64,000 bases of DNA from Oscillospiraceae bacterium (GTDB taxonomy: Bacteria; Bacillota; Clostridia; Oscillospirales; Acutalibacteraceae). This document shows positions 45,561 to 49,620 of the stretch, piece by piece. Position 1 is the first letter of the stretch. Every line of letters begins with the position of its first letter. The DNA lies in the NCBI GenBank assembly GCA_009779995.1, contig WRDW01000001.1:17299-81298 (forward strand), in the 5' to 3' direction. The position numbers were made by a program, and so were the translations under genes. A model generated the notes under the pieces. The model was not told where the DNA came from and did not search any database. It saw only the letters and a list, made by a program, of their open reading frames with translations.

Positions 45561-46340
45561 TTATCGCCGCACCACGATGCCGCGCGCCTCCAGGTAGTCC
45601 TTCACCTGGCCGACGGTGACGATGCCGAAGTGGAACAGCGTGGCCGCCAGCACGGCGTCCGCCTTGCCCTCCACGATGGCCTCGTAAAAGTGCTCGAGCG
45701 CGCCCGCCCCGCTGGAGGCGATCACCGGCACGGGCACGGCCTCGCTCACCGCGCGGGTGAGCGCCAGGTCGTAGCCCGTCTCCTGCCCGTCGCGGTCCAC
45801 GCTGTTGAGCAAAATCTCCCCCGCGCCGCGCCGCGCGGCCTCCACGGCCCAGGCCACGGCGTCTATGCCCGTGGGCAGCCTGCCGCCGTTGATGACCAGC
45901 TCCCAGCGCCCCGCGGGGCCGTCCGGCCCGTCCGGGAGGGCTTTGGCGTCGATGGCCAGCGCCACGCGCTCGCTGCCGAAGCGCAGCGCCGCCTCGTCGA
46001 GCAGCGCCGGGCGGCGCACGGCGGCGGAATTCACGCACACCTTGCTCGCGCCGGCATTCAGCAGGGTTTCGAAGTCCTCCGCGCTGCGCACGCCGCCGCT
46101 CACCGTGAGGGGGATGTGGACAGCGCCCAGCACCCGCTCTACCACGTCCAGGGTGGTGCCGCGCCCCTCGTGGGTGGCGTTGATGTCCAATAGGCACAGC
46201 TCGTCGGCCCCGGCCTTCTCGTAGGCCCGGGCGCATTCCACGGGGTCGCCCGCGTCGCGCAGATTCATGAAGCTGATGCCCGTCACCACGCGCCCGTCCT
46301 TGATGTCCAGCGCGGGAATGACCCGTTTTGCTTGTGGCAT
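45561..46340 (-). CDS. hisF: Imidazole glycerol phosphate synthase cyclase subunit
   Basis: RVIPALDIKDGRVVTGISFMNLRDAGDPVECARAYEKAGADELCLLDINATHEGR, ILLNSVDRDGQETGYDL, IASSGAGALEHF. Confidence 0.92.
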   Translation of the reverse strand: MPQAKRVIPALDIKDGRVVTGISFMNLRDAGDPVECARAYEKAGADELCLLDINATHEGRGTTLDVVERVLGAVHIPLTVSGGVRSAEDFETLLNAGASKVCVNSAAVRRPALLDEAALRFGSERVALAIDAKALPDGPDGPAGRWELVINGGRLPTGIDAVAWAVEAARRGAGEILLNSVDRDGQETGYDLALTRAVSEAVPVPVIASSGAGALEHFYEAIVEGKADAVLAATLFHFGIVTVGQVKDYLEARGIVVRR

Positions 46341-46428
46341 AAATATTTCTCCAATCTCAAGGCTGAATGCAGCGTAGCTATCTCACCACGCCCGCAAGGA
46401 AACACCATAGCTATGGTTAAAATGCAAA

Positions 46429-47232
46429 TTATTGCGGTGCAAGCAATTGCTCAATGATGGCTTCGAATCGTATTCGGAGAATGGTCGAGTTTCTTTGAAA
46501 AAAACCAGCAAGGTCATAGCCAACAACATCCGAAAAGAAGCGATATGTACTGTTATCACCGTTGAGAATACCAAGCATCATGTGAAGCCTTTGATCGCGG
46601 TATCGATGAAATACAGCATAATTCACTTGGGTAGAAACAATCACAATGACTGGCAAAAGAGAGTCGTCGGATCTTGCGCGCATACCAAAACGGAGGTCGG
46701 CATTTTGTCTTTTCGAGTCGGCGCTTTTGTACCCTTGCCTAATCTCAAATACCGCCCCATTTAAGGCATTAATATTGGATTGTGCGTAGTTCATGCTATG
46801 TGCTGTAGCAATCAGCCAGCTGTAAAACCTTTCTCTTTTTTCGCTCTCTTTGATGTCATTCGTCTTGATGCAAGCGTCCAGCGTGTGAGTCGCTAAAGTC
46901 CCATTTCCTTTGTCGTATGTATAAGACCAAGCAGCTTGTGTGTTGTCTAGTTCATATTCATCTTGTATAATCCGACGTAGCAGACGCTCACATCCAATCC
47001 CAAGCTGTCTGTATATGGATGTCATTGCGCCCGCGGCTTTGTGAGCGGCATACATGAGGTCGGAATCAAGACCAACCCAATGATACAGAGGGTCATTCCC
47101 ATACATTTCTCGGAACTGCTCAATGCTAATTCCTCTTGGGTCACTGCGCCCGAATGCAGGTTGGTGATTTGCGCATTCAACCAAAGGTTTTAGCAGTAAT
47201 TCCAAATACAATGCATCTTGCTTCTCAACCAT
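46429..47232 (-). CDS. Unknown protein coupled to C5-MTase; candidate type II restriction endonuclease
   Basis: Start ATG overlaps MTase stop (tATGgttga); MVEKQDALYLELLLKPLVECANHQPAF...VFEIRQGYKSADSKRQNADLRFG. Confidence 0.6.
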   Translation of the reverse strand: MVEKQDALYLELLLKPLVECANHQPAFGRSDPRGISIEQFREMYGNDPLYHWVGLDSDLMYAAHKAAGAMTSIYRQLGIGCERLLRRIIQDEYELDNTQAAWSYTYDKGNGTLATHTLDACIKTNDIKESEKRERFYSWLIATAHSMNYAQSNINALNGAVFEIRQGYKSADSKRQNADLRFGMRARSDDSLLPVIVIVSTQVNYAVFHRYRDQRLHMMLGILNGDNSTYRFFSDVVGYDLAGFFQRNSTILRIRFEAIIEQLLAPQ

Positions 47233-48376
47233 AGGCCGCCTCCTTGAAAAAGCTGATTTGCTCACAGTTATAAGCTGTACTCATATTGTCTAAGATTTTT
47301 TCCCCATGTTCCAACAGTTCGATGTAGTCTGATATAGTCGACGCTATGGCATGGCCAAGAATGGGCGGCACGGCGTTACCGATTTGCGTCATATTACTCA
47401 TTGCGGCAAATGGAAAGACAAATTCATCAGGGAATGATTGAAGGCGGGCGCATTCTCTTACAGTAAGCCTTCTATCAAGCGCATAGTGGAATTGAATCCG
47501 CGCTTTTGCGTTTGCTCTTATACAATATGCCAACATCCCTCGCTTATTTGTATGGTCGCCTTGCCCGCCGCCCGAAGTAGCTTTTGTCGCTATAAAATAT
47601 TGGCTTTGGTTTGGAACAGATTCGTCAGATATTGTTTCAAGATCACCAATTGCGTGTTCGATAGGCAGGTAGCCAGATAAATATTTCGGTTTCGGAGCGT
47701 CCGGCGGGAACCCTAAATCCATTCTTACAGCGACAATTATCAACCTTCTTCTGCTCTGGGATAGACCGAAAAGCGGAGCAAATAAATCCCACACAACAAC
47801 ATGATAACCAGCAGCCTTAATATCCTCCAAAATCAGGTTTAGATACTTTCCCCCATGTAATGTTGCAAGATGCGGGACATTTTCGCCTATGACAATATCC
47901 GGCTTATGTGTTTTCATATAGGCTATCATTGGCAAATACAGTTGTCCTCGCTCGCCTGCGAAACCAACCTTGGGACCTGACGATGAAAAATCTTGACAGG
48001 GAAACCCGCCGATCAGGATTCTCGCCTTTGGTAATTTGCAGGGGTCAATGCTTGTCAAGTCCCCGACTTCACCATGCTGAGAAATGTTGAGGTTATACGT
48101 TTGGATCGCTTTTTCGTCTATGTCAATAGCTTTGACTATATTGAACGGTAAAGCTTTGTATTCTTTCCCCAAATATCTAAACCCGCCTAAAAAGCCTAAG
48201 TCAAAACCTCCACAACCACTATACATGGACATGATGGTAGTACCATTAGGATATTCTTGACCTATCATATTGGGGTGTGCAATATCACGATTCGCGGGGT
48301 TGTCTTTTAAACCGCATTCAAATACGGGTTTATTCCTCAGCGCCTTTCGTTTTGGCAATCCAGTTTTCGGTCGCAT
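47225..48376 (-). CDS. DNA (cytosine-5-)-methyltransferase
   Basis: MYSGCGGFDLGFLGGF (I), GGFPCQDFSSSG (IV), GENVPHLATLHGGKYLNLI (VI), QSRRRLIIVAVR (VIII), TVRECARLQSFPDEF (IX), QIGNAVPPILGHAIA (X). Confidence 0.96.
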   Translation of the reverse strand: MRPKTGLPKRKALRNKPVFECGLKDNPANRDIAHPNMIGQEYPNGTTIMSMYSGCGGFDLGFLGGFRYLGKEYKALPFNIVKAIDIDEKAIQTYNLNISQHGEVGDLTSIDPCKLPKARILIGGFPCQDFSSSGPKVGFAGERGQLYLPMIAYMKTHKPDIVIGENVPHLATLHGGKYLNLILEDIKAAGYHVVVWDLFAPLFGLSQSRRRLIIVAVRMDLGFPPDAPKPKYLSGYLPIEHAIGDLETISDESVPNQSQYFIATKATSGGGQGDHTNKRGMLAYCIRANAKARIQFHYALDRRLTVRECARLQSFPDEFVFPFAAMSNMTQIGNAVPPILGHAIASTISDYIELLEHGEKILDNMSTAYNCEQISFFKEAAYG

Positions 48377-48404
48377 ATACTCCCTCGCTGTTGTTTATTG
48401 GGCC

Positions 48405-48436
48405 GTGTAAATTGTGCGTTGTAAATTGTGCATTGT
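48405..48436. repeat. Short tandem repeat (gtaaattgtgcgtt / gtaaattgtgcatt)
   Basis: taaattgtgcgttgtaaattgtgcattgt. Confidence 0.65.
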
Positions 48437-48438
48437 CC

Positions 48439-49620
48439 TCACCCCAGCCGGTATCCTCTCTCCACCAGCAGGCGCTGTATCCTGTCGGCCGGGTTGAGCA
48501 GCTTGGAGAGCGACATGTCGTGGTTGAGGGTGTCGATGAGGTAGGCGATGTACTTCGACATGCGCACCGAGACGTGCCAGGGGCGCTCGAGCAGATCCGG
48601 CGGGGTGTAGATCATGTCGCCGGTGAAAATGAGGTCGAACAGGCCCGCCTTGTAGGCGGCGTCCATGCGCTCGAGCCCCATGGAGAACAGCCCGAAGGAG
48701 GCGCACACGAACACCCTGTCGGCCCCGAGTTCCTTGAGCTTCGAGCATACATCGATGATGCTGTCGCCGGAATCGATCATGTCCTCCACCACGATGACGT
48801 CCTTGCCCTCCACGTTGCCGCCGAGGAACTCGTGGGCGCTGATGGGGTTGCGCCCATCGCGCACCACGCTGTAGTCGCGCCGCTTGTAGAACATCCCCAG
48901 GTCCACCTGGAGCATATGGGAGTAGTAGATGCTGCGCTTCATGCCGCCCTCGTCGGGGGTGATGATCATCAGGTGGTCCTTATCTATGTTGATGTCCTGC
49001 ACGTTGTTGACGATGGCCTTGATCATCTGGTAGGCGGGCGGCACGCTCTCGAAGCCGCAGTTGGGGATGGCGTTCTGCACGCGGGGGTCGTGGGCGTCGA
49101 AGGTAATGATGTTCTTCACCCCCAGGTGTACCAGCTCCTGCAGCGCCACGGCGCAGTCCAGGCTCTCCCGGCCCGAGCGCCAGTGCTGCCTGCCCTCGTA
49201 GAGCATGGGCATGATCACGTTCAGGCGCAGTTCCTTGCCCGCCGCCGCGCTGATCACGCGCTTTAGGCTCGCGAAGTGCTCGTCCGGGCTGGTGCGGCGC
49301 ATCTCGCCGTTCATATTGTAGCGCACGCCCCAGTTGAAGCAGTCGCACAGCAGGAACAGGTCGTAGCCCCGCACGGACTGCGTGATGACGGCCTTGGCCT
49401 CGCCGGTGCGGAAGCGGTCGATGCGCGCCTCAATGAGGTAGCTGTCGTTCACGTAGCGGCGCAGGATGTCCCCTTTGGGCCGCGCCTTCACGAATTCCTT
49501 GCGCCAGCCCGTGATGTAGGCGTCCACCTGCTGCGCCATGCGCTCGCAGCCCGGCAGCGCGATGATCCCCAGCTGGCCGTGCGGTACTGATTCTTGATAA
49601 TCCCCCGGGTTCTCCGCCAT
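48439..49620 (-). CDS. prs: Ribose-phosphate pyrophosphokinase-like protein
   Basis: KNIITFDAHDPRVQNAIPNCGFESVPP, GKDVIVVEDMIDSGDSIIDVCSKLKELGADRVFVCASFGLF. Confidence 0.9.
   Translation of the reverse strand: MAENPGDYQESVPHGQLGIIALPGCERMAQQVDAYITGWRKEFVKARPKGDILRRYVNDSYLIEARIDRFRTGEAKAVITQSVRGYDLFLLCDCFNWGVRYNMNGEMRRTSPDEHFASLKRVISAAAGKELRLNVIMPMLYEGRQHWRSGRESLDCAVALQELVHLGVKNIITFDAHDPRVQNAIPNCGFESVPPAYQMIKAIVNNVQDINIDKDHLMIITPDEGGMKRSIYYSHMLQVDLGMFYKRRDYSVVRDGRNPISAHEFLGGNVEGKDVIVVEDMIDSGDSIIDVCSKLKELGADRVFVCASFGLFSMGLERMDAAYKAGLFDLIFTGDMIYTPPDLLERPWHVSVRMSKYIAYLIDTLNHDMSLSKLLNPADRIQRLLVERGYRLG

Follow-up and report, generated by a model that had tools for sequence, protein, structure and literature searches.

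The window, a stretch of 64,000 nucleotides from an Oscillospiraceae genome, carries two overlapping genes that we read, with a probability of about 0.8, as a functional, acquired Type II R-M cassette, whose restriction endonuclease (REase) lineage switched the chemistry of its methyltransferase (MTase) and was phage-borne at least once. The arrangement on which the Type II assignment depends, i.e., adjacent genes for a DNA MTase and an endonuclease, is present, with the endonuclease recognized by homology only. The kind of system is ordinary, the combination of partners is unusual. The unusual part is the partner MTase (M) and not the REase (R). The features concerned are the following.

46429-47232, minus strand: R, predicted Type II restriction endonuclease, 267 aa from its ATG, PADLOC PDLC03512
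47225-48376, minus strand: M, C5-cytosine DNA methyltransferase, 383 aa, intact, PF00145 and TIGR00675
47225-47245, minus strand: translational coupling element, with AAGGAGG at 47239-47245, a 6-nt spacer, the R ATG at 47230-47232 and the M stop codon TGA at 47225-47227
46350-48420, no strand: AT-rich, probably acquired island, approximate extent, drawn from composition (GC about 0.44 vs 0.60-0.71 in the flanks)
45561-46340, minus strand: hisF-type histidine biosynthesis gene, flank, outside the system (PF00977, E=6.3e-75)
48439-49620, minus strand: PRPP-synthetase-like gene, flank, outside the system (PF13793, E=1.8e-11)

M is the canonical m5C MTase that a first-pass annotation of this DNA had taken it for. 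The protein matches PF00145 in Pfam (E=1.5e-59) and TIGR00675 dcm in NCBIfam (E=3.9e-56), and its nearest solved structures are M.HaeIII (1dct, E=1.2e-31) and M.HhaI. The motifs that characterize PF00145 enzymes are all readable, being motif I (SGCGGFDLGF), IV (GGFPCQDFS, containing PCQ), VI (ENV), VIII (QSRRRL, of the form QxRxR), IX (RRLTVRECARLQSFPDEF) and X (QIGNAVPP). A second m5C methyltransferase is encoded in the same genome at G000:C11:24107-25015 (L046).

The two genes overlap by 8 nt (ATGGTTGA), with the R start codon lying inside the last codons of M (junction AAGGAGGCGGCCTATGGTTGAG). R has a Shine–Dalgarno sequence of its own, AAGGAGG, 6 nt ahead of the ATG. The overlap by translational coupling claimed in the first-pass annotation is borne out by these elements, and synthesis of R would be coupled to translation of M, starting from the end of M. 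The mechanical ORF list places the R start at a GTG 11 codons upstream of the ATG, giving 278 aa.

Relatives of R were collected by scanning 84,980 species genomes with short peptide patterns, a procedure that underestimates their true number; 15 loci were found. A full-length or nearly full-length R is present in 14/15 of these loci, which belong to Pseudomonadota, Planctomycetota, Spirochaetota, Elusimicrobiota, Actinomycetota and Chloroflexota. IMG/VR contributed three further loci. In the relatives L002-L017, from six phyla and one viral contig, R shows 41-47% identity and is directly followed by an amino-methyltransferase of ~410 aa with the motifs DPFxGTxTT and TSPPY. This holds for 16/16 relatives, a count in which the contig of L003 ends inside the MTase, the motif of L014 reads WVRLTPAYS and L016 contains only a stretch of R. 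The two genes mostly overlap by 4 bp. TSPPY is typical of N4-cytosine enzymes, and the chemistry of these partners is probably N4-cytosine methylation; it may also be N6-adenine methylation.

Window R lacks the usual downstream TSPPY amino-MTase of its family and has an upstream m5C MTase as its partner. By contrast, all other PDLC03512 members examined that have an MTase partner, apart from L018, have the downstream amino-MTase, which is a typical trait observed in these members and not part of the PDLC03512 definition. A blastp comparison of window M with the amino-MTases of L002-L017 gives no meaningful match (best E 0.73). Only two examples of an m5C-paired R were found, i.e., the window and the metagenomic viral contig L018. 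Two other loci differ in further respects. In Elusimicrobia, R lies in an open frame of 579 codons (L007:4065-5804), whose ~312 extra N-terminal codons are possibly a mere ORF extension in high-GC DNA. A diverged R homolog with 36-40% identity and its core residues kept is found on a 407-kb contig of the viral collection (L019:3929-4738), where it adjoins a large serine recombinase; no methyltransferase is present within 4 kb, and the nearest m5C MTase is ~21 kb away.

L018 (IMG/VR 3300041964_000036) is a viral contig of 43.7 kb, in which an m5C M precedes R as in the window, a little over a kilobase before the terminase genes. M and R are 59% and 58% identical to their window counterparts, respectively. 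The cassettes differ in that M and R are separated by a 5-nt gap in L018 and share an 8-nt overlap in the window, in that L018 R carries a 12-residue acidic insert, and in their setting, near the terminase genes of a phage genome as opposed to between hisF and the PRPP-synthetase-like gene. They are alike in their m5C M-then-R order and in their R genes, which form one clade in an unrooted tree (support 100/99). The next branch, joining L008 of Micromonospora, is weak (84/62), and L019 is long-branched. At four-fold degenerate sites, the window and L018 differ in 81% of the positions in R and 70% in M. As these differences stand against an amino-acid identity of 58-59%, purifying selection acts on both genes, and their divergence has run in parallel. 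Moreover, because both have full-length homologs and conserve their amino acids relative to L018 despite near-saturated synonymous sites, the two ORFs are far beyond chance. Directly ahead of motif IX, the two M proteins are almost the same (NQSQYF...IRANAKARIQFHY), which suggests that they have one target in common. The large terminase subunit of L018 is split over three reading frames (L018:6352-7626), perhaps due to sequencing errors or to decay of the phage.

These comparisons bear on the possibility that M and R are unmatched, in which case the m5C MTase would be an accidental neighbour and R would be orphaned, inactive or otherwise protected. All other relatives do use a different methyltransferase, and the diverged R of L019 stands without one nearby, which counts in favour of an accidental pairing. 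However, a well-diverged phage cassette has this M beside this R, both genes have diverged equally under purifying selection, the region before motif IX of M is almost identical in the two cassettes, and the genes are translationally coupled in the window. An unmatched pair is therefore unlikely.

In the preferred reading, a functional cassette, M would methylate carbon 5 of cytosine in a short site, and R, as a PD-(D/E)XK-fold enzyme, would cut the same site if unmethylated, M and R presumably sharing one site. Unmodified invading DNA would thus be cut and the host spared. In the lineage shared by the window and L018, the downstream TSPPY amino-MTase would have been replaced by an upstream m5C methyltransferase. 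As the tree is unrooted, the direction is chosen for simplicity: since nearly all relatives carry the amino-MTase, it would be simpler for the m5C enzyme to have taken its place. L019, long-branched and with no MTase nearby, gives no guidance on this point. A more specific version has in our estimate an even chance of being right: a single exchange of partners, perhaps on a phage, would have left one REase family protected at an unchanged site by either of two unrelated methylation chemistries (amino-methyl in most lineages, C5-methyl in the window and L018), and the REase would work with a non-canonical D...E-x-R...K core. The case lends itself to asking how a lethal nuclease outlives a change of protector: either both marks blocked R, or R changed along with the swap. 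L018 adds a phage-borne vehicle for such R-M cassettes.

The first-pass annotation had presented R as a candidate new REase. The prediction of a REase stands, but the novelty does not, because R matches two REase models of PADLOC-DB (2023). The model PDLC03512, "Type II restriction enzyme", a name that reflects how its members are annotated and not an assay result, matches R residues 5-264 with E=8.8e-69, covering residues 10-273 of the 276 in the profile, almost its full length. The second model, PDLC03406, matches with E=2.3e-13. R of the Micromonospora locus L008 is recognized by PDLC03512 as well (E=1.5e-135). Homology therefore supports the view that R is a restriction endonuclease, and by profile match it belongs to an already catalogued family, with relatives in six phyla beside methyltransferases, hence not to a new one. 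Elsewhere, R passes none of the curated thresholds of Pfam and is not matched in NCBIfam, and the PDB sequences contain no credible relative, whether searched with R alone or with a profile. As far as tested here, the PDLC03512-type REases are structurally uncharacterized, and neither Pfam nor NCBIfam has a model for them. A sub-threshold Pfam 'Clc-like' match (E=0.003) and PDB matches to cathepsin and glycerol dehydrogenase were dismissed as chance.

Residue conservation in R was taken from alignments of 15 and 18 homologs, using the numbering of window R. Never varying among the 18 aligned sequences are D119, E163-x-R165-Q166, K169, D172, K174-R175-Q176 and D179. All of these except D119 fall inside the segment NGAVFEIRQGYKSADSKRQNADLRFG, which the first-pass annotation had singled out as resembling a nuclease-core strand and which is among the best-conserved stretches of this multi-phylum family. 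The AlphaFold model of window R (pLDDT 88.3, pTM 0.87) and the separately run model of L018 R (pLDDT 89.4) both consist of a helix, three strands, a helix and a strand; D119 maps to the second strand and E163 to the third. This predicted order fits the alpha-beta-beta-beta-alpha-beta core of PD-(D/E)XK nucleases, with Foldseek E>0.001 throughout. The singled-out segment, with its invariant E163, K169 and K174, lies in the predicted nuclease core, in agreement with the earlier view. At the position of the (D/E)xK signature, R reads E163-x-R165, the invariant lysines being displaced to K169 and K174. The models are consistent with a nuclease of the PD-(D/E)XK type whose lysine is displaced, with E-x-R on the strand and K169 or K174 after it, all catalytic residues being putative.

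Foldseek searches with the two R models gave no match with E<0.001, and a search of a viral fold library gave nothing significant. Below significance, the best folds for both models are mainly PD-(D/E)XK nucleases (Card1, Can2, EcoRII, Ecl18kI and EndoMS); the window R model additionally retrieved Cfr10I, Bse634I, EcoO109I and PspGI. Unrelated folds, such as APOBEC, are also among the top matches. The CCGG/EcoRII-type enzymes EcoRII, Ecl18kI, Cfr10I, Bse634I and PspGI thus recur among the best matches, with Foldseek E-values of 0.2 and above and no sequence match. Like these REases, R has an invariant lysine and arginine beyond the third core strand, in the loop and helix that follow it. Unlike them, it has its conserved acid on the strand as E163-x-R165, and the likeness observed is one of predicted fold, not of CCGG specificity.

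The non-canonical active-site motif could also point to an effector that reads the mark set by M, such as a modification-dependent (Type IV-like) nuclease. Such a role is very improbable, since the family carries a Type II REase annotation, nearly all of its members adjoin a DNA methyltransferase of one of two chemistries, and a nuclease cutting the product of its partner would kill the host. The annotation's proposal, taken as a wholly new REase family or fold, is equally hard to credit: the lack of Pfam, NCBIfam and PDB sequence matches and of a significant PDB fold match is outweighed by PDLC03512 (E=8.8e-69) and PDLC03406 (E=2.3e-13), and in both models the order of elements and the nearest folds favour PD-(D/E)XK.

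The cassette was probably acquired horizontally. R and M have a GC of 0.445 and 0.442 and a GC3 of 0.43 and 0.42, respectively, while the neighbouring genes have a GC of 0.63-0.71 and a GC3 of 0.87-0.93 (0.93 in the hisF and PRPP-synthetase-like flanks). A search of the other 97 related genomes detected no R, and samples of the class (391 genomes) and the phylum (399) contained none besides that of the window. Low GC and absence of R from related genomes and from the class and phylum samples together support horizontal acquisition, as the first-pass annotation had proposed from the AT-richness relative to the flanks. No R homolog occurs in collections of plasmid and phage records. A search of IMG/VR with window M retrieved nothing, and one with L018 M retrieved only its own contig and two distant MTases (33%). 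At the upstream edge of the island (window 48408-48437), a short tandem-like repeat is present (TGTAAATTGTGCGT / TGTAAATTGTGCAT); a repeat search around the island revealed no target-site duplication. An empty-site comparison gave no clean result, because sibling species do not preserve the surroundings of the PRPP-synthetase-like gene.

Precedents for a differing partner MTase exist in other REase families. DraR1 of Deinococcus radiodurans has an m4C instead of an m5C partner when compared with related or same-site REases (PMC10855626), and the same applies to CbeI compared with HaeIII (PMC3425538). However, DraR1 is a GIY-YIG nuclease recognizing CCGCGG and CbeI is a HaeIII-like enzyme recognizing GGCC; window R belongs to another REase family than either. 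Moreover, in contrast to these precedents, the m5C partner is the rare state in the R family. The R.Nph3I-M.Nph3I pair of the temperate phage NrS-3 is a complete Type II R-M system that is active in vitro (PMC10734518). Its site is given as RGATCY/GGATCC, a different one, and its likeness to L018 consists in being a phage-borne Type II R-M system.

Palindrome avoidance was compared across 441 kb of the own genome, two sibling species, three genomes that carry relatives of R, and L018; no single site emerged. In the own genome (window and L052-L070), GCATGC (12 observed vs 119 expected) and ACGCGT (9 vs 66) are depleted relative to the two siblings. L018 and the hosts of relatives are short of other palindromes than the own genome. 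Because the depleted palindromes differ and M is not the only m5C MTase of the own genome, the M-R pair cannot be linked to any one site. In the sibling species G012 (L091-L110), GGCC occurs 285 times vs 1954 expected, a depletion that the own genome does not share and that suggests a past or present GGCC system in G012.
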